A DNA stretch of 23,249 bases, taken from positions 4,637-27,885 of the IMG/VR virus record IMGVR_UViG_3300030329_001612; one strand, given 5' to 3'. Positions 1-21,683 of the stretch are shown here, piece by piece. A program made the position numbers and the translations under genes. The stretch comes from a virus. The notes beneath the pieces are model-generated. The model saw nothing but the letters and a program-made list of their open reading frames with translations. It ran no database searches and had not been told where the DNA came from. Each line of letters opens with the position of its first letter. Position 1 is the first letter of the stretch.

Positions 1-69
1 GGTCAATCTTTTACACTTGTCTACGTAGATTCTACAAGAGGCTGGGCTTATAAAACAAATACAGCATAG
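1..69 (+). CDS. C-terminal end of an upstream virion protein (partial)
   Basis: The first 69 bases read in one open frame to a TAG stop, giving 22 residues that end YVDSTRGWAYKTNTA. A beta-strand-like stretch followed by 'STRGW' near the C terminus is the kind of ending I associate with phage tail fibre or capsid-attached proteins, but 22 residues are too few to name a family. The next gene starts ten bases after the stop, which fits a continuing late structural operon. The rest of the gene lies outside the window. Confidence 0.5.
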   Translation, partial: GQSFTLVYVDSTRGWAYKTNTA

Positions 70-9700: not shown

Positions 9701-10959
9701 GATCAATAACAGGATTAGGTGATGAAGAAATGAATTTATTTAAACAATACTTTGCACCTCCATATCAAGCTAATTCAAACATGTTACCACTAACTAAACC
9801 TGATAAAGGTAGATTTAAAGTTGTAGATTTATCAGATTTCATTCCGCAGTCTGTAGTAATAGAACCGATCGAAGCCATCTTTACAAAATTAAGAGAACAA
9901 AAATCTTTAGGTGACAAAGATATAATTGAAGTTTTCTTTGGTAAAAATGGACCGGTGAGAACTTTTTTTGAATCTTACATAAGTACCCCAATTGGATTTG
10001 AACCTTTTCTAGATGTAGGTAGAGGTCAAACAGACACAGGTAAAAAAATATGGAGTAAAACAGATACTCTTTATGAAAAAGGTGAAAAATCTCTCATGCA
10101 TATTTTAAATGTATTAGAACCTGGTATTGTTACATCTAGTCAAAAGTTTTTTGATGCAATTACAAAACAACCTACACCAACAGGTGTAGTAAGAGAAACA
10201 GGAGATGTCATCATTGGTGCAAGCACAGGTTTAAAACCTTACAATGTAGATATTAAAGAATCTTTAGATTACAAAATATCTGAATTTACACGAATTAGAT
10301 CAGATGTATTTAGAGCCGAAGATTTTTATAAGTTTAAAGATATTAGAGCTAGAGGTGGAGATGTGATTGTAGAAGAATTTATAGACATACAGCGTGAGGC
10401 TTTTAGATTACAAAAAGATATTTACAACGCCATACAAGCAGCTAAAGAATTTGGTTTAACTGATAGAGATATTAGAAAAATATTTAAAGCTAGAAAAGGT
10501 ATTAGCTCTAGAACGATTAGAAATATTATGAACGGTAAATTTACACCAGTTAACTTCTCTGAAGACAGATTTAAGAAAAAATTAGATATAATTAAGAAAA
10601 GAGAAAAAGAATTAGATTTTGATTATGATTTGGATAAAAGATTTGTATTTCCAAAAAGAGAAATGAAAAGAGTTATTAGAAGACTCAGAAGAGATAGATT
10701 TGATGAGCCTTTCTATTATGACAGACCAAAAGACGATAGAAGAAGTAGTTTACCTGCGGTTGAACCAAGTAATGTTGGTCTAGCCTCAATAAGAACTACG
10801 CCAAGAATAAAAACACCACCACTACCTAAACAACCAACACCAGTGGTGCAAACAACTGTAAACAACCTAGTGCCAAACACAGGCTTGACAGCATCTGAAA
10901 CAGCACTATTATCGCCCGACGAACAAGCGATAAGATTAAAACAAAGAGGTATCGGTTAA
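6703..10959 (+). CDS. Very large internal/ejected virion protein, 1418 aa
   Basis: This is the largest gene in the window. A strong Shine-Dalgarno site (GGAGG) precedes ATG 6703, two bases past the upstream stop. The product is mostly helical and basic, with weakly hydrophobic Gly/Ala segments near residues 95-130, 250-300 and 975-1006 (the last includes GLLGLYTVLGGASMGIKGL). Between about 1300 and 1350 it is very charged (KREMKRVIRRLRRDRF), and the tail is Pro-rich, ending SPDEQAIRLKQRGIG. The size, its place just before lysis genes and the membrane-active-looking segments fit the giant ejected proteins of podoviruses (analogous to T7 gp15/gp16). I see no convincing transglycosylase catalytic motif. 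A tape-measure role is less likely. Confidence 0.65.
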   Translation: MANPFEFTLPQLKQFAKDQDTKNNILETNPSDKVKVVKPKTTAGGFVEQLRNDPKSFGAAFALDYVNKERKKKGLEPLFEEDIQKDETTVGKEFQAAIAGAGANIFEGLANILTIPVDYTFDTSFTRKLNDVTREFVTEHGSPKTLTGDIARIGVQYGLPSTVTLKIVNQIPKLGSIRKSYTGFRKTLSNIENKFLRRSAKLGTSIARRSGQGGLALGAADALVAEPDRPTLFYQPVSEEGKTGRDLAAARFINKVKFGQEGATFGVGFALAGKALPIGAKYGLYKPGAFVLGIGAKAADTVIKPVSYVGARIPGIRVPFQLAQKGSELLVKELGTRVVLPAFGQTVKGAWTAKLPDFAKWRTFSTESSKPLEASLKRLDNKLAYLRSMGPQTGKQYALTTAARQEIKRAARRTEKLLESIEKRSYRLAKSFEGRYNKGIQNSKASQEYYLDGVLEFLKGQKTLAALPKDLQVTARALKTDMDKIRKTFGDLLPSGDLRDAVLKNVKGYMRKSFAIFENPGYAVSETSPLFKKAQQFALNLINGKGGAVYRVQAKKVYGGPGVSVGRARELQAKEMVREILRLGKVDKYDPIRNLNEIGKLIRMKNFIATGEELPTVIKNLLGQQNNLRAQVMTTISSMSTQTTNKLLFDRLAKVLTKEGILFRTEEAAKRAGIMNPVRISGARGLGAMKSLLTDIKKPLYGASDLVEALTTSKGFMDAFIQHGLYKNLLQLKTGVQYGKTVLSPETQVRNFYSAMMFPLARGVLGGRASATDAIAMVADDIFNAGKGDAKAELRLLANIDEGIKYGVLDENIVASELQAVLKEVRNGSIETVEGLAKFLEKNPLTEKAARLYAGGDNVWKWFTYNWYKSFTKDLFKGDVANARKWFRDIAGREMLDTTLTGGKVDIDEAIRQAASWYTRNTIPTYSKVPAFIKELRRSPFGNFVSFPAEMLRTTFNNMTISVKEAASTNPELRAMGIRGLLGLYTVLGGASMGIKGLYGSITGLGDEEMNLFKQYFAPPYQANSNMLPLTKPDKGRFKVVDLSDFIPQSVVIEPIEAIFTKLREQKSLGDKDIIEVFFGKNGPVRTFFESYISTPIGFEPFLDVGRGQTDTGKKIWSKTDTLYEKGEKSLMHILNVLEPGIVTSSQKFFDAITKQPTPTGVVRETGDVIIGASTGLKPYNVDIKESLDYKISEFTRIRSDVFRAEDFYKFKDIRARGGDVIVEEFIDIQREAFRLQKDIYNAIQAAKEFGLTDRDIRKIFKARKGISSRTIRNIMNGKFTPVNFSEDRFKKKLDIIKKREKELDFDYDLDKRFVFPKREMKRVIRRLRRDRFDEPFYYDRPKDDRRSSLPAVEPSNVGLASIRTTPRIKTPPLPKQPTPVVQTTVNNLVPNTGLTASETALLSPDEQAIRLKQRGIG

Positions 10960-11608: not shown

Positions 11609-11986
11609 ATGAAAAATAGTCTTCTGGTGCACAAGCACTTAATCATTCGCGCCGAGGCTAGTCGACCACCGACAGATGAAGAGTATCTAAAAAATTGGAT
11701 GATAGATTTTATAGAGTCCATAGATATGAAAATATTTATGGGTCCTTATGTAAAGTATTGTGCCATGGATGGTAACAGAGGTATTACAGCTGTAGCAATT
11801 ATAGAAACCTCACACATAGCAATGCATATATGGGATGAACCTAAACCTGCGTTAGTGCAAATGGATGTTTATTCTTGTGGTGAATTTGATCACACAGATA
11901 TTTGTAAAAAATTAATGAGTGATTTTGATATCCATAAAATAGAATACAAATATTTAAATAGAGAGACAGGACTTGTAGATCTTTAA
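11609..11986 (+). CDS. speD: SpeD-family pyruvoyl-dependent decarboxylase (S-adenosylmethionine decarboxylase-like)
   Basis: The 125-residue product matches the small class 1B SpeD fold in length and motifs: ETSHIAMHIW at 66-75 and VYSCGEFD at 87-94. In this family the precursor cuts itself before a serine, which becomes the pyruvoyl cofactor; here that is Ser68, followed by His69 and His73, with the catalytic Cys at 90. Typical SpeD has Glu-Ser at the cleavage point, whereas this protein has Thr-Ser with the Glu one position earlier. AdoMet decarboxylase supplies aminopropyl groups for spermidine, but SpeD homologues that decarboxylate ornithine or arginine are known, so the substrate is uncertain. 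It follows the endolysin by three bases, implying late expression, and could supply polyamines for DNA packaging (inference). Confidence 0.85.
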   Translation: MKNSLLVHKHLIIRAEASRPPTDEEYLKNWMIDFIESIDMKIFMGPYVKYCAMDGNRGITAVAIIETSHIAMHIWDEPKPALVQMDVYSCGEFDHTDICKKLMSDFDIHKIEYKYLNRETGLVDL

Positions 11987-12224: not shown

Positions 12225-12262
12225 AAAAAAAATTAAGAAAACGTTTTTTTGATTTTTTAATT
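12225..12262 (-). terminator. Weak AT-only terminator candidate at the end of the minus-strand helicase operon
   Basis: TTAATT at 12257-12262 can pair with AATTAA at 12231-12236, and on the minus strand the structure is followed by eight T residues (complement of 12225-12232). It overlaps the stop codon of the 91-aa gene. The stem is short and made only of A-T pairs, so termination may be weak or the match may be chance in AT-rich sequence. Confidence 0.3.
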
Positions 12263-12536
12263 ATTTTGGTTCGTGTCCTCCACACACATAACCAATAACT
12301 TTTTTACCCTTCCATCTATGTTTGTAATGATTCTCTCCTGGTTTGGGATTTTTTTTTAAAGTGATTACTACATTCTGATGATACCAACTACTACAAACTA
12401 TTGCGTTTGAATCATGCCAGTTGATACCGTCACGTCCATTATAATCCTCTCTTGTATTTGGTATTTCAAATGTATGCATTTCTATTTTACCAAATAGTGT
12501 AAGAGTTAATAAAGTTATCATCACAATATTTTCCAT
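12261..12536 (-). CDS. Small exported or membrane-anchored protein, 91 aa, minus strand
   Basis: The N terminus (MENIVMITLLTLTLFGKIEM) has a short hydrophobic stretch at about residues 4-15 that could be a signal or anchor, although it has an acidic residue instead of the usual basic ones. The rest is soluble, rich in Asn, His, Lys and Trp, with two cysteines at 48 and 85 that could form a disulphide if exported. AGAGAA lies upstream of the start. It is the last gene of a minus-strand run behind the SNF2 helicase and the two-TM protein, three bases after the latter. I do not recognise a family; a periplasmic or cell-envelope role is only a possibility. Confidence 0.6.
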   Translation of the reverse strand: MENIVMITLLTLTLFGKIEMHTFEIPNTREDYNGRDGINWHDSNAIVCSSWYHQNVVITLKKNPKPGENHYKHRWKGKKVIGYVCGGHEPK

Positions 12537-12539
12537 GAT

Positions 12540-12740
12540 TTATTCTCTATCATCATGCCACCGTTCATTTATTTTAATTGCCATCCAGATAGCAATAGGA
12601 ATACAGAATATAAAGGTTAATTCCATAGACCTTTTAATTGAAAATCCAAAATAATGATTTAATACTGTGGTTATTAATATGGGTGCACATGCTCCAACCA
12701 ACATAAGTATTACCATCCTTATATAAAACGGGTATTTCAT
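12540..12740 (-). CDS. Small two-TM membrane protein, 66 aa, minus strand
   Basis: I place the start at the ATG whose last bases overlap the helicase stop as ATGA (12737-12740), not at a TTG two codons upstream. The product has two membrane spans, at about residues 7-28 (IRMVILMLVGACAPILITTV) and 41-57 (FIFCIPIAIWMAIKI), and a charged C terminus (NERWHDDRE). Both ends are expected to lie on the same side of the membrane. Size and topology fit holin-like, superinfection-exclusion or toxin-like phage proteins, but there is no diagnostic motif. Being joined to a helicase operon rather than the lysis genes makes a canonical holin less likely. Confidence 0.65.
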   Translation of the reverse strand: MKYPFYIRMVILMLVGACAPILITTVLNHYFGFSIKRSMELTFIFCIPIAIWMAIKINERWHDDRE

Positions 12741-14170
12741 ATCCAATCTTGAACTGTATCACCCATTACCGTAGATGCAATGTTAATTTTTTTTCTTAGT
12801 GCTTTAATAATTTTTTCGTCAACAGTTTTTTTAGCTATAAGATCTACATAAGTTACAGGTTTGTGTTGGCCTATTCTATGTGCTCTGTCTTCTGATTGTA
12901 ATCTTTTTTCTAAGTCGTAACTATTAGAATAGTAAATTACATTACTAGCAGCAGTAAGAGTTAATCCATATCCTGCAGTCTGTGTATTACCTACAAAATA
13001 TTTAACTTTAGATTTAGGATCTTGAAATTCTTTAATGGCTTTTTGTCTATCTTCAGAAGATACTTCTCCATAATATTGAACCACACATCCCTCATCATAT
13101 TCTTTTTCCAAAGCTTCAGTAATTTCTTTTATATCATGCACATAGTTAGCCCAGATTATAACTTTACCTTCCATTTCATCAATAACATCAATAAGTTCTT
13201 CGATACGATTATGTTTAAAATTAGTTATCTCACCATCATCAGATTTTAAATGACCACAAGTTATCTGATGCAACCGCATCAGTTGTGTTAATACGTGAGG
13301 AGCTGTAGCCATCTTACCTTTTAGTTGAGCTAGAGCTGCGGACTTCATAGTTGCATAAGCTTCATTTTGTTCTTTAGTTAATTCTACAACTCTATTCATA
13401 TAGATTTTTTTAGGTAAGTCTAAGCAATCTTTCTTTTGTACACGATAAGAAAACTCTTTTAATATCTCTTCTAGTTCATCTAATCTTTGATAAGATCCCA
13501 CTATCTGCACTCTTCTACCACCAAAATTTCTATCTATCATAACAGCATATCTATTTCTAAATGTATAATAAGATACGTGACCTAACAGATCTTCATCTAA
13601 AAAAGCACATTGACTATATAAATCTAAGGGTGATTTAGTTACAGGAGATCCTGTAAGAATACGTCTGTATTGTGCGTGTTTACCTAACAATAATATATTT
13701 TTAGTTCTTTTAGCTGATGGATTTTTAATAGTGGTAGACTCATCCACAACCATAATAGTTTTATGAGTTCTTAAAAATTTATATGCAAACTCCACACCTT
13801 TTTTTGTGCTGAATGCTTCAACATTCATAATAAGGATGTGAAGGTCTAAATCTGATTCAAATAATTGTTGATACTCTTTATCCTTTGCTTTGGATGTTGT
13901 TGCAGTCCATAGTACCATTTTGGGTTTTATGTGGTCAACTAAATGATTTGGTATTTCTTGAGACAACCAGTTGGTGTAAACGCCTTTTGGTGCTATAATC
14001 AATGCCCCATTTATTTTACCTTTATCATAAAGCATAGACATATTATCAATCAACACTTTTGATTTACCTGTACCCATCTCCATAAAATAGCCATATTCTT
14101 TTTTATCCCATGACTTTTTTAAAGCAGTAAGCTGATGCTTATATGGTGTCGTTTTAAATTTGTAATTCAT
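12737..14170 (-). CDS. SNF2-type superfamily 2 helicase, minus strand
   Basis: The product (477 aa from the chosen start) carries a full SF2/SNF2 motif set. Walker A is MEMGTGKS at about 30-37, the Walker B-like motif is VVDESTTIKNP at about 141-151, motif III is LTGSPVTKSPLDLYSQ at about 172-187, motif V is GYGLTLTAAS near 400-409 and motif VI is QSEDRAHRIGQ near 425-435. HRIGQ is typical of SNF2 enzymes. Such proteins use ATP to translocate on double-stranded DNA; in phages they may remodel replication or recombination intermediates or displace bound proteins. An upstream in-frame ATG at 14188 would add six residues, but the predicted promoter starts transcription near 14183, so ATG 14170 with AGAAAG upstream is preferred. 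The stop overlaps the two-TM gene as ATGA. Confidence 0.93.
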   Translation of the reverse strand: MNYKFKTTPYKHQLTALKKSWDKKEYGYFMEMGTGKSKVLIDNMSMLYDKGKINGALIIAPKGVYTNWLSQEIPNHLVDHIKPKMVLWTATTSKAKDKEYQQLFESDLDLHILIMNVEAFSTKKGVEFAYKFLRTHKTIMVVDESTTIKNPSAKRTKNILLLGKHAQYRRILTGSPVTKSPLDLYSQCAFLDEDLLGHVSYYTFRNRYAVMIDRNFGGRRVQIVGSYQRLDELEEILKEFSYRVQKKDCLDLPKKIYMNRVVELTKEQNEAYATMKSAALAQLKGKMATAPHVLTQLMRLHQITCGHLKSDDGEITNFKHNRIEELIDVIDEMEGKVIIWANYVHDIKEITEALEKEYDEGCVVQYYGEVSSEDRQKAIKEFQDPKSKVKYFVGNTQTAGYGLTLTAASNVIYYSNSYDLEKRLQSEDRAHRIGQHKPVTYVDLIAKKTVDEKIIKALRKKINIASTVMGDTVQDWI

Positions 14171-14181
14171 ATTCTTTCTAC

Positions 14182-14217
14182 TTGACATCTATATAGGAAG
14201 ATATATATCTGTGTCAA
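14182..14217. promoter_or_regulatory. Overlapping divergent sigma70-like promoters
   Basis: A perfect TTGACA at 14182-14187 on the plus strand faces a perfect TTGACA at 14217-14212 on the minus strand. Minus strand: a 16-base spacer leads to TATATA at 14195-14190, with predicted start near 14183. Plus strand: a 16-base spacer leads to TATATC at 14204-14209, with predicted start near 14216. Each -10 lies between the two -35 boxes, so polymerase could occupy only one promoter at a time. Both leaders would be about 13-14 bases long before ATG 14170 (minus) and ATG 14230 (plus). The 36 bases form an imperfect inverted repeat. Confidence 0.65.
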
Positions 14218-14229
14218 GAGAATAATAGA

Positions 14230-14637
14230 ATGAAGAATAAAATTTTTGAATTATATAAACCAAATTCTTTAAGAGAGTTTTTAGACTTTCACAAAAACAA
14301 TCCTGAAGAAAAATTTGTATATGTGTTACAGCACCCGCCTGCAAATATAAATATATTAGGTGCATCTGACTTTGGTTATCTTGTAATCTGTTTGCCTAAC
14401 TATGGCCCAGATTCACAAATAATATTCTCATCAAGTCCATTTGTTTTTAAGATGCAAAAAAATTTAAGAGATTTTAGAAAACAAGATTATGTATTGCTCA
14501 CAGGTGATCCAGCTATTATTGGTATCTCTTGTGCAATCGTTTGTGATAAAACAAACGGAAAGTTTAACCTTCTCAAATGGGATCGAAGAGAGGCTAAATA
14601 TTATCCAATAAATTTCGATCTCTATCAGAAAGGATAA
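14230..14637 (+). CDS. Conserved-looking phage protein of unknown function, 135 aa
   Basis: This is the first gene to the right of the divergent promoters, so it should be the leading gene of the replication transcript. The 135-residue product is globular, with mixed alpha/beta pattern and hydrophobic strands such as KFVYVLQH, FGYLVICLPNYGP, YVLLTGDPAIIGISCAIV and KFNLLKWDRREAKYYPI. There is no signal peptide, membrane span or catalytic motif I can name. The LLTGDPAIIGI segment resembles a small unknown protein seen near replication genes of marine phages, but that is recall, not a search. AAGGA before the next gene and the two-base gap link it to the 199-aa gene. Confidence 0.7.
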   Translation: MKNKIFELYKPNSLREFLDFHKNNPEEKFVYVLQHPPANINILGASDFGYLVICLPNYGPDSQIIFSSSPFVFKMQKNLRDFRKQDYVLLTGDPAIIGISCAIVCDKTNGKFNLLKWDRREAKYYPINFDLYQKG

Positions 14638-14639
14638 CA

Positions 14640-15239
14640 ATGAGTACAAAAATAAAAACATATACAGGCAGTGGTGCATTTGACGTAAGAAGTGAAATGT
14701 TAAAAGATACTAAAGACATGCTTGATAATGTAGAGATAACAGATATTGCACAACAATGTGTGTTATTAAAAAAGAAAGAAGATGAGGTAGCAGAACTAGA
14801 AGATAAACTCAAAGCTAAAAAACAAGAGCGTGATGATATTAGTTCTAGAGTTATACCTGAACTTCTACAAGAACAGGGATTATCAGAAATAAAACTTGCA
14901 GATGGCAGTAAAGTTTCTGTAAAAAAAGAATTTAGGGCTACTCTACCAAAAGATGATTTGACTAGAGAAGCTGCCTATAAATGGCTTCGTGACCAAAACT
15001 TAGGTGACATTATTAAAAACAATGTGACTGTTAGTTTTGGAAAGGGAGAAGATAACAAGGCGAACCAATTGGTGGACCTTGCGGTTGCTAATGGTTTTAC
15101 TCCACAACAGAAATCTGATGTGGCGTGGAATACATTGACAGCCCTGTATGAGGAGCGTGTCAAGGCCGGCCTTGACATGCCTTCTGACGTCTTTCATCTT
15201 TGGATAAAAGACAAAACAAAAATAAGTCGGAAAAAATAA
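14640..15239 (+). CDS. Coiled-coil replication-block protein of unknown function, 199 aa
   Basis: Residues about 38-75 form a charged coiled coil (QCVLLKKKEDEVAELEDKLK and following residues). After it comes a globular domain, with VIPELLQEQGLSEIKLADGS then KVSVKKEFRATLPKDDL and a helical C terminus. The basic strands around 85-97 could bind nucleic acid, but no named domain is visible. It lies between the 135-aa gene and the SSB-like gene, with AAGGA upstream, so a replication or recombination accessory role is plausible. A perfect 20-bp palindrome lies within its 3' part (15158-15177). Its stop overlaps a four-codon frame that leads into the next gene. Confidence 0.75.
   Translation: MSTKIKTYTGSGAFDVRSEMLKDTKDMLDNVEITDIAQQCVLLKKKEDEVAELEDKLKAKKQERDDISSRVIPELLQEQGLSEIKLADGSKVSVKKEFRATLPKDDLTREAAYKWLRDQNLGDIIKNNVTVSFGKGEDNKANQLVDLAVANGFTPQQKSDVAWNTLTALYEERVKAGLDMPSDVFHLWIKDKTKISRKK
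15158..15177. repeat. Perfect 20-bp GC-rich palindrome inside a coding region
   Basis: The half-site TGTCAAGGCC is followed directly by its exact reverse complement. The centre GGCCGGCC is an 8-bp palindrome (an FseI-type site). It lies in the codons for the C-terminal part of the 199-aa protein (VKAGLDM region), in otherwise AT-rich sequence. It could be a protein-binding site or a restriction-relevant site; its role is unknown. Confidence 0.9.
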
Positions 15240-15252
15240 TGGAGGATGAATA

Positions 15253-16023
15253 ATGGCTAATGAAATAAAAGCTAAAGAAAACGGATCAGTTGCGTTGTTT
15301 GGTAACGATCTGCAAAAAGGTTTTGAAAACATGACGCAAGAAGATATGGCGTTACCGTTTATCAGAATCTTAGGACAGCTATCACCACAGGTAACTGAAG
15401 GTGATGCGAAGTTTGTAGAGGGTGCCAAACCAGGTATGATCTACAATACTGTTACCAACGACTTGTTCGATGGTAAAAAAGGTATCAAGGTTATACCTTG
15501 TTACTACAAAAAAGACTATCCGGAATGGTCTGACAGAGGTGATGGGCCAGGTGCTCCTGTGGCTACACACTCACCAGGCAGTCCGGTTATCCAAACAGGT
15601 AAAAGAGATGGCTCTAAAATTAGATTACCAAACGGTAACTATTTAGAAGAGACTGCTTATTACTATGTGATGGTAGAAAAAAGACAAGGCGGATACAGCC
15701 CTGCTTTAATTACTATGAAATCAACTCAGTTGAGCGTCAGTAAGAAATGGAATTCTATGATGAAGTCTGTTCAGATTGACGATGGTAAAGGCGGATTTGC
15801 TGTACCACCTATGCATGGGGTAGTCTACAATCTTCAATCAAATCTACAAAAGAACGATAAAGGTTCTTGGTATGGTTGGGTTGTAACTATGGACCGAATC
15901 ATGGGACAAAAAGATAAGACTTTGTATTTAAGTGCAAAGGACTTCTCAGGGAATGTCTCAAAAGGCAACGTGCAAACAAAGGCTGATGTGGAAGAGACGT
16001 CAGATACTAAAACTCCGTTTTAG
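15253..16023 (+). CDS. Putative single-stranded DNA-binding protein, 256 aa
   Basis: The protein is soluble and beta-rich. Its N-terminal part (MALPFIRILGQLSPQV at 32-47) and WSDRGDGPG region resemble a phage family often found beside replication genes. The C terminus is acidic and ends in Pro-Phe (ADVEETSDTKTPF), like the partner-binding tails of bacterial SSB (…DIPF) and the acidic, Phe-ending tail of T7 gp2.5. That tail and the location before primase, helicase and polymerase genes suggest an SSB; the fold itself is not proven by visible motifs. The Shine-Dalgarno site GGAGG at 15241-15245 is strong, and a strong terminator follows directly, which fits high expression. A general unknown replication protein is the alternative. 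Confidence 0.6.
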   Translation: MANEIKAKENGSVALFGNDLQKGFENMTQEDMALPFIRILGQLSPQVTEGDAKFVEGAKPGMIYNTVTNDLFDGKKGIKVIPCYYKKDYPEWSDRGDGPGAPVATHSPGSPVIQTGKRDGSKIRLPNGNYLEETAYYYVMVEKRQGGYSPALITMKSTQLSVSKKWNSMMKSVQIDDGKGGFAVPPMHGVVYNLQSNLQKNDKGSWYGWVVTMDRIMGQKDKTLYLSAKDFSGNVSKGNVQTKADVEETSDTKTPF

Positions 16024-16071: not shown

Positions 16072-17592
16072 ATGAAGTTTAAAAGTATATTTGAAGGTTT
16101 AAAAATTGCATATGGACAATACCAAAAAGGTGAAAGAGGAGAAAACGGTAAACAAAAAGGAAAAGCATTTATCGTTAGAAAACAAATCACCGACGATCTA
16201 TGGAAGAATCATATCGAAGGCAAAGGCCCTGCACTTGGAATTATCCCAATTACCGAGTCCAATACTTGTAAGTGGGGCTGCATTGATATTGATGAGTATA
16301 ATCTCTCTCATAGTGATCTTATATCTAGGATCCGAGATTTTGGTTTCCCCTTAATAGTATGTCGCTCTAAATCAGGAGGAGCACATGTATTTTTATTTAC
16401 AAGAGAATTTATATCTGCTGCTCTCATGCAGCAAACTCTCAAACGAATTGCAAAAGTTTTAGGATATGAAGGTTGCGAAATCTTTCCTAAACAAACAGAA
16501 ATACTTGTGGAACGTGGGGACACAGGTAACTTCTTAAACTTACCCTACTACAATGGAACGAAAGGATTACGATATGCTATCAACGATAGTGGCTCCTCTT
16601 GTACACTTGAGGAATTTTATAAGCTCTATGATGTTTGTGCGTGCACAAGGCAAGAAGTGGAGAAAATTAAAGTTGAAGAGAAAAAAATAGAAGAGGCTTT
16701 TCCTGCGGGACCACCTTGCTTAAATAAACTGGCATCAGTTGGTTTTGGTGAGGGGTCTAGAAATAATGCATTATTCAACATAGCTGTTTATTATAAACAA
16801 TCACATCCTGATAGTTGGGAAGATAAAATTGTAGAAGCTAATTTAAAATATATGGAACCGAAGTTAAGTAATAGTGAGGTTCAACAATTAATTAAATCTG
16901 TAAATAGAAAAGGCTATGATAAGTATAGATGTAAAGACGCACCAATCAACGCGGTCTGTCAATCGGGTTTGTGTAGAACAAAACGTTTTGGTGTAGGCTA
17001 TGGTGAAGAAGAAATGCCTGTGTTAGGTAATCTTACTAAATACAAATCCACTCCACCTCAATGGTTCTTAGATGTAAGTGGAACGCGGATCGAATTAAAA
17101 TCAGAACAATTATATAGCCCACCTTTGTTTGCATTAGCATGTTTAGATCAAGCTAACCTGGTTGTGCCTGTACCAAAAGCAAAAGATTGGAAACAATATT
17201 TTTTAAAACCTATGATGCAAAATTTACAAGAAGTAGAACCATTAGAATCTTTAGATCCTATGAACCAACTAATTGGACTGTTACAAGATTGGACAACAAA
17301 CAGACAATCAGCAAGAACTATAGATGACGTATTAAACAAACTACCATTTACGGACGAAAACAAAGAATTCACATATTTTAGAATGGATGATTTTTATGCG
17401 TTTTGTAAAAAGAATAATTGGGATGTAGATAAAATAAAGACAGGTAATTTAATAAAAAGACTTGATGAAACTTTTGTTTCAGAAGAAAGAGTTAGAATAA
17501 AAAAACAACAACCTAGACTAATAAAAATAAAAACAATGAGAGCGATGGAAACATCTGTATCAAAAGTACAATATCATAAGGAGGCTTTTTAA
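16072..17592 (+). CDS. AEP-superfamily DNA primase (TOTE/PrimPol-like)
   Basis: The 506-residue product has the hallmarks of the archaeo-eukaryotic primase superfamily. GCIDIDEY at 69-76 gives the metal-binding DxD (Asp72, Asp74), SKSGGAHVFLF at 99-109 gives the SxH-type motif with His105, and FPKQTEI lies at 138-144. A second domain at about 210-305 has a helical block (RNNALFNIAVYYK, EVQQLIKSVNR) flanked by Cys216, Cys287, Cys296 and Cys301, which may bind an Fe-S cluster or zinc as in primase C-terminal domains. The rest (about 310-506) is not recognised. It should make primers for PolA, encoded downstream. It starts just after the terminator with a modest AGGT site, and ends with a TAATG overlap. 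Confidence 0.85.
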   Translation: MKFKSIFEGLKIAYGQYQKGERGENGKQKGKAFIVRKQITDDLWKNHIEGKGPALGIIPITESNTCKWGCIDIDEYNLSHSDLISRIRDFGFPLIVCRSKSGGAHVFLFTREFISAALMQQTLKRIAKVLGYEGCEIFPKQTEILVERGDTGNFLNLPYYNGTKGLRYAINDSGSSCTLEEFYKLYDVCACTRQEVEKIKVEEKKIEEAFPAGPPCLNKLASVGFGEGSRNNALFNIAVYYKQSHPDSWEDKIVEANLKYMEPKLSNSEVQQLIKSVNRKGYDKYRCKDAPINAVCQSGLCRTKRFGVGYGEEEMPVLGNLTKYKSTPPQWFLDVSGTRIELKSEQLYSPPLFALACLDQANLVVPVPKAKDWKQYFLKPMMQNLQEVEPLESLDPMNQLIGLLQDWTTNRQSARTIDDVLNKLPFTDENKEFTYFRMDDFYAFCKKNNWDVDKIKTGNLIKRLDETFVSEERVRIKKQQPRLIKIKTMRAMETSVSKVQYHKEAF

Positions 17593-17777
17593 TGGCAATT
17601 TATGCAGATTGTAAAAGTAAAAGAGAAGCTAGATTAAGATGGAGAAAAAGTCCTAAAGGAAAGGCTTGGGACAAAGCTTACTACCAACGACCTTATGTTC
17701 AAGCTAAACGAAAAGCAAAAAAATTAATGAGAAAACAAAATGAAAACAATTATATTGGGACCGCCTGGAACGGGTAA
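17592..17777 (+). CDS. Small basic protein, 61 aa
   Basis: The start shares its A with the primase stop (TAATG), with GGAGG just upstream at 17581-17585. The product is very basic (KSKREARLRWRKSPKGKAWD, then YVQAKRKAKKLMRK) and contains no Cys pair or HNH catalytic set. Its last 12 residues are encoded in the same bases as the start and Walker A motif of the SF1 helicase, a 38-base out-of-frame overlap. The composition suggests nucleic acid binding, but I know no family. The strong ribosome site and coupling support a real gene. Confidence 0.7.
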   Translation: MAIYADCKSKREARLRWRKSPKGKAWDKAYYQRPYVQAKRKAKKLMRKQNENNYIGTAWNG

Positions 17778-19269
17778 GACTACTACATTATTAAACTTAG
17801 TAGATCAGTTTATACAACAAGGCGTAAGACCAAAACAAATAGGATACTTTTCTTTTACTAGAAAAGCAGCAAGAGAAGCAGCAACAAGAGCAGCTGAAAA
17901 GTTTGGTCTTGATGCAGAAAAAGATTTAGAAAATTTTAGAACTTTACACTCGTTTGCATTTCAAAGATTAGGAATGACAAAAGAAAAAATGATGACAGCA
18001 GAAGATTATCGAGAGTTTGGTAAGATGGTAGGTATACCTATTAAGACAGGTAAACACTCAGATGAAGATGGTACTTTTAATTCAGACAATGAATATCTTA
18101 CTATTATGAATACAGCCAGAGTTAAAAGAATGGATTTGTTAGAATACTATGACTCTAGACAAAACATATTAGATATAGAAAGAGATACACTTTATTTATT
18201 ATCTGAAGAATTAAAACGATATAAAAAAGAAAAAGGTCTAAAAGATTTTACAGATTTATTAGAAGATTTTATTAAACAAGAAAACAAACCAAACTTTGAA
18301 GCTTTGTTTATAGATGAAGCGCAAGATTTATCTTTAATACAATGGGAGATGGTTAGATCTATGTGGGCTAATGCTAAAAAAACTTACATAGCTGGTGATG
18401 ATGATCAAGCTATATTTAAATGGGCTGGAGCTGACGTAGATCATTTCATAGCATTAAAAGAAGAAGTTAATGATATTAAAGTATTGGATCAATCATATCG
18501 AATACCTGGTGGACCAATACATGAATTGTCACAAAAAATAATTAATAAAGTACAAAATAGATTTGATAAGAATTATAAACCTAGAACTCAACAAGGTATC
18601 TTGCGTAGATATTCTGATATTACACAAGTGGATATGTCTAAAGATAATTGGTTGGTATTATCATCAGCTAATCATTTTCTTGATGATGTAAAAGAAGTTT
18701 GTGAATTAAGAGGATGGTATTATCAACACAGGGGTATGAATTCCGTTCCATTAAAACTTTTAATAGCTTTAAATAATTGGGAGAGATGGCGTAAGAAAGA
18801 TGCAATACAAGGTGCTACAAATTTATTGGGTCCTATTGAGATAAAAAATATATATGAATATCTTGGATCAAATGTGTCACCAGGTTTTAGAACAGGTAAA
18901 CTTTTTCATTCTGAAGAAAAATACACATTAAAAGAATGTATGGAGAAGTATGGATTACTTACAGATAAAGTTTGGTATGAATCTTTTGATGGTTTAGATA
19001 CCATCACAGAGAACTACATTCGTAACATGCGGGCGAATGGAGAACAGATAAACAAAAATCCGCGTATCATTATGTCAACAATACATGGAGCGAAAGGAGG
19101 CGAAGCTGATAAAGTTTTGCTTATGCAAGATCTTACAAATGCAGCGTTAGAAACTATGAGTTATGATCCAGACGAATTACATAGGTTATTCTATACTGGA
19201 GCGACGAGAGCGAAGCGCGAATTGCATGTGTTAGATCCAAAGAACTTTGATCGAGCTTATATTTTATAA
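17740..19269 (+). CDS. Superfamily 1 UvrD/PcrA-like DNA helicase
   Basis: All SF1A motifs are visible in the 509-residue product. Walker A is GPPGTGKTT at 7-15, motif Ia is FSFTRKAAREA at 37-47, motif II is FIDEAQD at 190-196, motif III is GDDDQAIFKWAGA at 219-231, motif IV is DQSYR at 250-254, motif V is STIHGAKGGEAD at 446-457 and motif VI is LFYTGATRAKRELHVL at 483-498. It should translocate 3'-5' on single-stranded DNA and unwind duplexes. It is shorter than UvrD (about 720 aa), with reduced insertion domains, as is common in phages. As the only processive replicative-type helicase seen on this strand, it may drive fork unwinding with the AEP primase and PolA; that role is inferred from context. 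Confidence 0.95.
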   Translation: MKTIILGPPGTGKTTTLLNLVDQFIQQGVRPKQIGYFSFTRKAAREAATRAAEKFGLDAEKDLENFRTLHSFAFQRLGMTKEKMMTAEDYREFGKMVGIPIKTGKHSDEDGTFNSDNEYLTIMNTARVKRMDLLEYYDSRQNILDIERDTLYLLSEELKRYKKEKGLKDFTDLLEDFIKQENKPNFEALFIDEAQDLSLIQWEMVRSMWANAKKTYIAGDDDQAIFKWAGADVDHFIALKEEVNDIKVLDQSYRIPGGPIHELSQKIINKVQNRFDKNYKPRTQQGILRRYSDITQVDMSKDNWLVLSSANHFLDDVKEVCELRGWYYQHRGMNSVPLKLLIALNNWERWRKKDAIQGATNLLGPIEIKNIYEYLGSNVSPGFRTGKLFHSEEKYTLKECMEKYGLLTDKVWYESFDGLDTITENYIRNMRANGEQINKNPRIIMSTIHGAKGGEADKVLLMQDLTNAALETMSYDPDELHRLFYTGATRAKRELHVLDPKNFDRAYIL

Positions 19270-19631
19270 TGGATGAAAACAAAAACGATAGATATATGTT
19301 TGCTTATATTGCTGGTCTTATTGATGGGGAGGGTTGTATTACATACACACAACAACTCCAACATCGTAAAGGAAAGCCCAGAGCCTACAAGTACTGGAAC
19401 ATACGAATTGAGGTAGCGATGACACATAAAGAAACAATAGAATATTTACATGAAGCACTTGGTTGTGGACACGTTAATATCAGACCAAAGATGTCTCATC
19501 AAAACTTTGATCAATGGCGTTGGCGATGCAGCCACAGAGATGCATTAGAGGTTGCAAAAGCTATAGAACCATTTTCAAAAACAAAAAAGAATAAATTAAG
19601 AGAGGTGATAAATCATTATGAAAAGTCTTAA
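19269..19631 (+). CDS. LAGLIDADG-type homing endonuclease, single motif
   Basis: The 120-residue product has FAYIAGLIDGEGCITY at about 11-26, a textbook LAGLIDADG motif. It is followed by a beta-rich DNA-binding saddle (YWNIRIEVAMT, WRWRCSHRD) and a helical C terminus (KNKLREVINHY). With one motif it should act as a homodimer that cuts a long target site and promotes its own spread. It is free-standing, not inside an intron or intein that I can detect: the genes on both sides are intact. It overlaps the helicase stop by one base and the DUF3310 start by 14 bases, so it is fully built into the operon. Loss of endonuclease activity with retention of DNA binding is possible. Confidence 0.9.
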   Translation: MDENKNDRYMFAYIAGLIDGEGCITYTQQLQHRKGKPRAYKYWNIRIEVAMTHKETIEYLHEALGCGHVNIRPKMSHQNFDQWRWRCSHRDALEVAKAIEPFSKTKKNKLREVINHYEKS

Positions 19632-19824
19632 GAAACAAATTGGAGGACGACACTATCAAAATTTTGTCATTCAGCCAGCAGAGTTTATAAACAAGAATAG
19701 GTTGCAATTTGCAGAGGGGAACGCTATAAAGTATATATGTAGGCATCCTCACAAAGGAGGCATACAAGATATAGATAAAGCTATACATTATCTAGAAATG
19801 GTAAAGGAGAGAGACTACAAGTGA
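19618..19824 (+). CDS. DUF3310 (SaV-like) phage protein, 68 aa
   Basis: The product matches the DUF3310 pattern: GGRHYQNFVIQPAEFI at 9-24, then FAEGNAIKYICRHPHKGG and a closing helix DIDKAIHYLEMV. This small family is widespread in phages beside DNA replication genes and is sometimes labelled nucleotide kinase without clear proof of activity. There is no P-loop in this protein, so I would not call it a kinase. AGAGGTG upstream supports ATG 19618 even though the gene starts inside the homing endonuclease. Its TGA overlaps the GTG start of the polymerase (GTGA), which ties their translation together. Confidence 0.88.
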   Translation: MKSLKKQIGGRHYQNFVIQPAEFINKNRLQFAEGNAIKYICRHPHKGGIQDIDKAIHYLEMVKERDYK

Positions 19825-21683
19825 GAAGTACACAAATACCCCTATTTACCCCTGAAACAGAATGGGTCATGCCAGATGAACTAAAAGATCTGCGCGGAGC
19901 CAAAGAAATAGCAATAGATTTAGAAACTAACGACCCACTCTTGAAAGAGTTAGGCTCTGGTAATGTAACTGGAAAAGGGCACATTGCTGGCGTTGCGGTG
20001 GCCGTAGAAGGCTGGTCAGGCTATTATCCTATACACCACGAGCAAGGTGGTAATATGGACAAAAATCTGGTGTTAAACTGGCTAAAAGATTTGTTTACAC
20101 AAGAAGATACAACCTTCATTTTTCACAATGCTATGTACGATATTTGTTGGTTAAGGTCAGCAGGACTGACCATAAAAGGACCCATAATGGACACGATGAT
20201 AGCAGCATCCTTGATAGACGAAAACAGAATGAGCTATCAATTAAATGCCTTATCTAAACATTACGTTGGCATAGGTAAAGATGAAAAAATTTTATTAGAA
20301 GCAGCAAAAGAGTATGGATTAGATGCTAAAGCAGATATGTGGAGATTACCACCAATGTTTGTAGGTCAATATGCAGAGCGTGATGCAGAAGCAACTTTAA
20401 AACTTTGGCAAAGATTAAAAGTAGAACTATACAATCAAGAATTAATGGATGTATTTAACTTAGAAACAAAATTATTTCCATGTCTTGTTGATATGAGATT
20501 TAAAGGTGTAAGAGTTGATTTAGAAAAAGCACAAAATATTAAACAAAATTTAATTAAAAGGGAAGAAAAAATTATACAAAATATAAAAAAATTAACTGGT
20601 GTTGACGTAGAAATTATGGCAGCCAGATCTATAGCAAAAGCCTTTGATAAGTTAAAACTTCCATACGATAGAACAGAAAAAAGTAAAGAACCAAGTTTTA
20701 CAAAAAACTTTTTACAGAACCATCCACATGAATTAGGAAGATCAATAGCTGAAGCAAGAGAATTAAACAAAGCTCACACTACATTTATAGATTCAATAAC
20801 CAAACATGCAGTTGATGGTAGAATACATGCAGACATAAATCAAATTAGATCAGACCAAGGTGGCACGGTTACAGGTAGATTTAGTATGAGTAATCCAAAC
20901 TTACAACAGATACCCGCAAGACATCCTGAACTTGGTCCAATGATTAGATCTATATTTATTCCAGAAGAAAAACATGTTTGGGGTTCATTTGACTACTCAC
21001 AACAAGAACCAAGAATTTTAGTGCATTACGCAAAACTGCAGAATTTGGACGGAGTTGATGAAATTGTAGACGCATACAACGCCGGAGACGCTGATTTCCA
21101 TCAGGTCGTGGCCGACATGGCAGGCATAGAACGGAAGCAAGCCAAGACGATTAATTTAGGTCTTATGTATGGAATGGGTAAAAATAAATTGATGGCTGAA
21201 CTAGGTTTGATGAAAGAGTCAGCAGAAAAATTAATTAGACAATATCATACTAAAGCTCCATTTGTAAAAAAACTAATGGACAATGTATCTAGAAAAGCAA
21301 ACGACAGAGGTAAGATTAGAACTTTATTAGGACGTGCATGTCATTTTGATTTATGGCAGCCAGTACAATTTGGTGTATTCAAACCTTTACCACTCGAACA
21401 AGCAAGGAAAGAATATGATGAACCATTAAAGCGTGCGTTTACATACAAAGCATTAAATAAATTAATACAAGGATCTGCGGCTGATATGACAAAAAAATCT
21501 ATGGTAGCTCTTTATGAAAATGGTATAATACCACACATACAGATTCATGATGAGGTAGATATTTCTGTTGAGTCTGATGTTAAAGCAGAAGAAATAATTA
21601 AGATTATGGAAGCTGCTGTTGAATTAAAGGTTCCTAATAAAGTTGATTATGAAAAGGGGGCTAACTGGGGTGAAATTAAGTAA
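19821..21683 (+). CDS. polA: Family A DNA polymerase with 3'-5' exonuclease, Leu762 type
   Basis: The 620-residue product starts with GTG, overlapping the DUF3310 stop, with AAGGAGAG upstream. The exonuclease domain has AIDLET (Asp33, Glu35), FHNAMYD (Asp107) and QYAERD (Tyr184, Asp188), the DEDDy set. The polymerase domain has TGRFSMSNPNLQQIP near 351-365, motif A DYSQQEPR at 391-398, motif B from Arg438 through Lys442, Leu446 and Tyr450, and motif C IHDE with Asp577-Glu578. Leu446 aligns with E. coli PolI residue 762, which is Phe in E. coli and Tyr in T7. There is no 5'-3' exonuclease domain, as usual for phages. It should be the replicative polymerase. A patch of higher G+C covers the region between motifs A and B. 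Confidence 0.96.
   Translation: MRSTQIPLFTPETEWVMPDELKDLRGAKEIAIDLETNDPLLKELGSGNVTGKGHIAGVAVAVEGWSGYYPIHHEQGGNMDKNLVLNWLKDLFTQEDTTFIFHNAMYDICWLRSAGLTIKGPIMDTMIAASLIDENRMSYQLNALSKHYVGIGKDEKILLEAAKEYGLDAKADMWRLPPMFVGQYAERDAEATLKLWQRLKVELYNQELMDVFNLETKLFPCLVDMRFKGVRVDLEKAQNIKQNLIKREEKIIQNIKKLTGVDVEIMAARSIAKAFDKLKLPYDRTEKSKEPSFTKNFLQNHPHELGRSIAEARELNKAHTTFIDSITKHAVDGRIHADINQIRSDQGGTVTGRFSMSNPNLQQIPARHPELGPMIRSIFIPEEKHVWGSFDYSQQEPRILVHYAKLQNLDGVDEIVDAYNAGDADFHQVVADMAGIERKQAKTINLGLMYGMGKNKLMAELGLMKESAEKLIRQYHTKAPFVKKLMDNVSRKANDRGKIRTLLGRACHFDLWQPVQFGVFKPLPLEQARKEYDEPLKRAFTYKALNKLIQGSAADMTKKSMVALYENGIIPHIQIHDEVDISVESDVKAEEIIKIMEAAVELKVPNKVDYEKGANWGEIK

Follow-up and report, generated by a model that had tools for sequence, protein, structure and literature searches.

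A strictly conserved pair of facing TTGACA boxes and the two-way promoter it probably forms between the helicase and replication genes of an ocean phage

How is transcription started at a junction from which two gene units run in opposite directions, and does the DNA between them choose one unit over the other? The junction lies in a stretch of 23,249 nucleotides (hereafter the window; G000:C1:4637-27885) within a 34.7-kb virus record. The source is an ocean phage with SAR11-type bacteria as hosts, and its nearest named relatives are the HTVC023P-type pelagiphages, its helicase being 74% identical to that of phage 023Pt_psg01 (psg01 below), 55% to that of HTVC027P and 47% to that of HTVC023P. 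Here, and likewise in relatives, two divergent transcription units meet at a 36-bp site, with a helicase gene on the minus strand and a gene for a 135-aa protein on the plus strand, and the deposited records of psg01 and HTVC027P start and end at this helicase/135-aa-gene junction. The features concerned are the following:

12261-12746, minus strand: remainder of the short leftward unit, two small ORFs (12540-12746 and 12261-12536; from the ORF list)
12737-14170, minus strand: SNF2-type helicase, 477 aa, leading the short leftward unit (PF00176, E 1.9e-24; PF00271, E 6.2e-16)
14182-14187, plus strand: TTGACA, −35 box of the putative rightward promoter, overlying the predicted leftward start (~14183); read in the sequence, TTGAC conserved
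14190-14195, minus strand: −10-like TATATA of the putative leftward promoter, spacer 16 (register 16-19); read in the sequence, TATA enriched in relatives
14204-14209, plus strand: −10-like TATATC of the putative rightward promoter, spacer 16 (register 16-18); read in the sequence, TATA enriched in relatives
14212-14217, minus strand: TTGACA (TGTCAA as read on the plus strand), −35 box of the putative leftward promoter, overlying the predicted rightward start (~14216); read in the sequence, GTCAA conserved
14230-14637, plus strand: 135-aa gene, Pam3 gp32-like, leading the rightward unit (PF23992, E 1.8e-25)
14640-15239, plus strand: Pam3 gp33-like gene (PF23984, E 2.4e-30)
15253-16023, plus strand: Pam3 gp34-like gene (PF23977, E 1.4e-70)
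16072-21683, plus strand: replication block with primase, UvrD-type helicase, LAGLIDADG ORF, DUF3310 and DNA polymerase A (Pfam and PHROGs)

Profile searches of the two small leftward ORFs returned no confident family. The longest helicase ORF opens at 14188, within the left TTGACA box; the start codon is likely to be the one at 14170, because the alignment of relatives begins there and the upstream ATG is not retained.

Direct reading of the sequence confirmed that two TTGACA boxes face each other with 24 bases between them. A single TTGACA-N18..30-TGTCAA arrangement is present in the window, where shuffling leads one to expect 0.03, although isolated TTGACA boxes are less frequent than chance would give (9 vs 19.6 expected). 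No further TTGAC-N24..26-GTCAA copy was found in the window or in psg01, and a looser match, in which 23 bases separate TTGAC from GTCAA, is located near the end of the phage's own record (34563-34595). Another facing TTGACA pair, 17 bases apart at 15135/15163, lies within the coding region for a 199-aa protein and is probably due to chance.

Conservation was assessed in loci gathered from viral metagenomes, using as queries the 135-aa protein, the helicase, and the helicases of HTVC027P, HTVC023P and an intermediate phage. In the first locus set, TTGAC-N-GTCAA was present in 98 of 99 distinct junctions, the hexamers being separated by 24, 25 or 26 bases. In the larger set it was kept in 81 of 82 distinct junctions of the window's own clade (inner distance 24-26) and in all 64 of a second clade with about 59-64% helicase identity (inner distance 21-26), whereas among 4300 junctions that had been shuffled it appeared in 2. 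Loss of the pair in close relatives that share the gene order, which the sequence-only reading had named as a refutation, is thus not what is seen: 145 of 146 distinct junctions from two clades retain it, the sole exception belonging to a distant freshwater phage. The phage collection searched contained no isolate from the window's clade. It is not common to all HTVC023P-type phages, as 0 of 53 junctions of the HTVC027P clade and 0 of 55 of the HTVC023P clade carry it. Among 40 representative cores TTGAC and GTCAA are invariant and the central positions nearly random, and the inner length varies far less (sd 0.44) than the two leader distances (sd 8.4 and 7.3). Such complete invariance exceeds what is usual for −35 boxes and could reflect a second constraint, for instance an operator or the context of a start codon.

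The −10 elements that would accompany these boxes are weak in the window, TATATC and TATATA each matching 4 of 6 positions and lacking T at position 6. A strict promoter scan of the window reported neither of them; it overlooks the site because it requires T at that position. When the box pair was held fixed, the interiors were shuffled and the −10 was scored at spacer 16-18, the natural interiors scored above the shuffled ones on both strands, with z values of 3.8 and 2.5 for the window's clade and 5.3 and 2.3 for the second clade, which overstate independence because related sequences enter the shuffle tests. In relatives, TATA begins preferentially at spacer 16-18 (plus strand) or 16-19 (minus strand), at frequencies many times those of the shuffled interiors; at other spacers the two are close, and the caveat on related sequences applies here too.

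The predicted starts, derived from the sequence, would lie at 14216 and 14183, 33 bp apart. The nearly equal leaders described in the sequence-only reading (13 and 14 bases) are obtained if the starts fall 7 bases past the −10s, but the equality is not conserved: box-to-start distances in relatives range over 11-57 and 11-34, which rules out equal leaders as a designed feature. No mapped transcription starts were found in the literature on these phages, and the phrase "transcription start" is absent from the main text of the RNA-seq paper on HTVC027P (PMC12753301).

Our preferred explanation, to which we assign a probability of about 0.8, is that the 36 bp at 14182-14217 form a compact bidirectional promoter, with two face-to-face overlapping elements used by the sigma70-type RNA polymerase of the host. 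The same DNA carries consensus −35 boxes on both strands together with TATA elements that are enriched in relatives at spacer 16-19, and the retention of the pair and the TATA spacing support the proposal that two fully overlapping divergent promoters separate the helicase unit from the replication genes. Transcription of the helicase gene in one direction and of the DNA-replication genes in the other would thus very probably start from a single site. Each antiparallel promoter would have its −35 box at the RNA start of the other, with both −10s in between, and polymerase would bind in one orientation at a time, leading either to the helicase unit on the left or to the replication operon on the right. 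As to the polymerase itself, the lytic phage HTVC027P belongs to the same group; host RNAP genes went up in the course of its infection, and a phage RNAP is listed as specific to the other phage studied (PMC12753301).

From this geometry, mutual exclusion of two polymerases is likely, and it has been argued for overlapping promoters that both orientations cannot be occupied simultaneously (PMC4207663, PMC12825309). The further proposal of a built-in either/or switch is unsupported. At ordinary firing rates competition need not matter: in five tested E. coli bidirectional promoters basal firing was too rare for it, although strong activation one way can repress the opposite direction (PMC12825309). 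A switch requires a regulator with a different effect on the two promoters (discussed in PMC4207663). With many genome copies and many rounds of initiation, both units would be expressed in one cell. The default expectation is joint expression: the site's likely job would be to turn both units on together, at a ratio given by the two promoter strengths. Competition would become relevant only with frequent firing from a strong promoter, a case left possible because both −35 boxes are consensus.

The remark that no repressor gene is visible holds for the window, but the rest of the record encodes a weak candidate. A 58-aa protein of psg01 (10602-10778) gave a weak ribbon-helix-helix (RHH) match (PF01402, E 0.0023, below the curated cut-off). 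A protein search found its counterpart, 38-40% identical, in the phage's own record beyond the window (G000:C1:30347-30520), and HTVC027P gp21 (11641-11820) is 32% identical to the psg01 protein. Direct RHH_1 and HTH_3 profile searches over the own record gave no match, and this small protein should be regarded only as a lead to a regulator. These RHH-like (CopG-like) proteins of 58-59 aa are found in three members of the group, and the HTVC027P copy sits at another divergent junction. The product of the 135-aa gene was rejected as the regulator: it belongs to the Pam3 gp32 family, and its alpha/beta model (pLDDT 81.9) gives no sign of a DNA-binding fold and has no significant fold match (best PDB match E 0.022).

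A phage regulator would have a larger part if the pair were mainly an operator, with a dimeric protein on two TTGAC half-sites, about three helical turns apart (30-31 bp between box centres), controlling both promoters as a true switch. The inverted symmetry and the full invariance of the half-sites are in keeping with this, as are the RHH-like proteins described above. However, the inner right block departs from the palindrome in some relatives while a promoter-like block persists, and the inner length differs by at least one base, which would shift the half-sites; moreover, psg01 and the window hold no second copy of the element, and the RHH evidence consists of a sub-threshold match and an empty RHH_1 search of the own record. 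We therefore consider this explanation unlikely. Less probable again is a combined scheme in which TTGAC/GTCAA serves both polymerase and a phage RHH-like regulator that times both units in the most abundant known SAR11 phage group, with related clades keeping two-way firing and swapping between separate and shared −10s; we mention it as speculation.

The junctions that lack the pair bear on the next alternative. In the HTVC027P clade (about 55% helicase identity, same gene order) the left box is lost, and most junctions retain the right one as AAGTCAA, whose GTCAA could be a −35 for transcription towards the helicase, TATATA mostly lying 17 bases from it. In many of them the left side carries TTTACT, and TATAAT-like boxes lie 18 bases away. 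TTTACT and a central TATA may replace the left box in this clade, with the two −10s overlapping centrally; this is a reading rather than a result, because the −10 score is only modestly above shuffles on the plus strand (z 2.3) and not above them on the minus strand (z −0.1). HTVC023P-clade junctions have yet another appearance. On the helicase tree the second clade and the HTVC027P clade group together (support 100/99) with the window's clade outside, and the distribution of the pair requires two changes. One reading is an ancestral pair followed by loss in the HTVC027P clade, although the root was set at the midpoint and gives no proof.

The retained GTCAA, without a left TTGACA, would suit an explanation in which one promoter only is real and the other box is kept for another purpose, for example as part of the leader of the 135-aa gene or of the context of its start codon. 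The right box of second-clade junctions often adjoins an ATG (GTCAATG). In the window's clade, however, the right box is invariant even at 11-34 bases from the start codon, and both directions have TATA blocks at promoter spacing; we judge a single promoter to be slightly less probable than an operator. An AT-rich palindrome might also be a replication origin or unwinding element instead of a promoter. The site is AT-rich, symmetric and adjacent to replication genes, but its conserved letters match −35 and −10 boxes at promoter spacing, which makes this very improbable. A functionless chance pair in AT-rich DNA, to which the weak −10s and the lack of enrichment of promoter-like sites across the window (63 vs 79.7 expected in the strict scan) might seem to point, has the low expectation for such a pair against it and is already refuted by the retention in relatives.

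Overlapping divergent promoters are familiar from several systems. In E. coli, the bioA and bioBFCD units diverge from face-to-face overlapping promoters with the operator of a repressor (BirA) in between, and phage lambda has the divergent promoters PRM and PR a short distance apart, with repressor genes and operators adjoining them (lambda also features in the discussion of PMC4207663). The phage site resembles the former in its predicted face-to-face overlap and differs in that a repressor binding between the boxes is hypothetical; with the latter it would share divergent phage promoters lying close together, and it differs from it in promoter geometry.

In Bacillus plasmid pLS20, the divergent promoters Pc and Pr occupy the same DNA; each is proposed to have its −35 and −10 boxes where the −10 and −35 boxes of the other lie, and the Pr start is 6 bp from the Pc −35 (PMC4207663). 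The phage site likewise has predicted divergent promoters overlapping on the same DNA. However, the plasmid promoters are unequal in strength, one being far from consensus, whereas both phage −35 boxes are consensus, and the switch in pLS20 is brought about by a dedicated regulator, Rco, together with looping, a function for which the phage has a candidate only. The bidirectional promoters of E. coli and other prokaryotes are similar in offering one polymerase platform in two orientations, where one binding event excludes the other (PMC10268837, PMC12825309). In the class described by Warman, Grainger and colleagues, divergent starts are separated by 7-25 bp and each promoter's −10 overlaps the start of the other (PMC10268837); the phage site falls outside this definition, because its predicted starts are 33 bp apart, its −10s are separate and it is the −35 boxes that overlap the starts. 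Junctions of the HTVC027P clade are nearer to it, with a central TATA that would be shared by both directions and putative starts that a hand count places about 21 bp apart.

The kind of promoter is thus already known, both as overlapping divergent promoters with exchanged −35 and −10 boxes (PMC4207663) and as bidirectional promoters (PMC10268837, PMC12825309), and the phage site is an unusually tidy example of it, not a proven on/off switch. What is unusual is the consensus −35 pair, how strictly two clades conserve it, and that the geometry seems to have changed at one junction. The word "promoter" is absent from the main texts of the HTVC023P-type phage papers searched, and a strictly conserved two-way promoter offers a concrete place to test early transcription in these phages. 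Likewise, the different geometries that nature provides at one orthologous junction could be used to test how the form of the overlap influences competition between polymerases.

Some further observations concern other parts of the window. Within the replication block, the primase (16072-17592, plus strand) matches the TOTE-system archaeo-eukaryotic primase domain (PF22548, E 1.7e-11) as well as PriCT_1, and the LAGLIDADG endonuclease ORF (19269-19631, plus strand; PF00961, E 3.4e-06) lies between the UvrD-type helicase and DUF3310 genes. An S-adenosylmethionine decarboxylase-like gene (11609-11986, plus strand; PF02675, E 2.7e-16), possibly a metabolic gene of the phage, adjoins a peptidase M15 gene. 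The top promoter-like match of the scan, TTGACA-16-TATTAT at 10885-10912 (plus strand, 11/12), is located near the end of a 1418-aa ORF, with a 64-aa ORF and the M15 peptidase gene following directly, and could be a lysis promoter.
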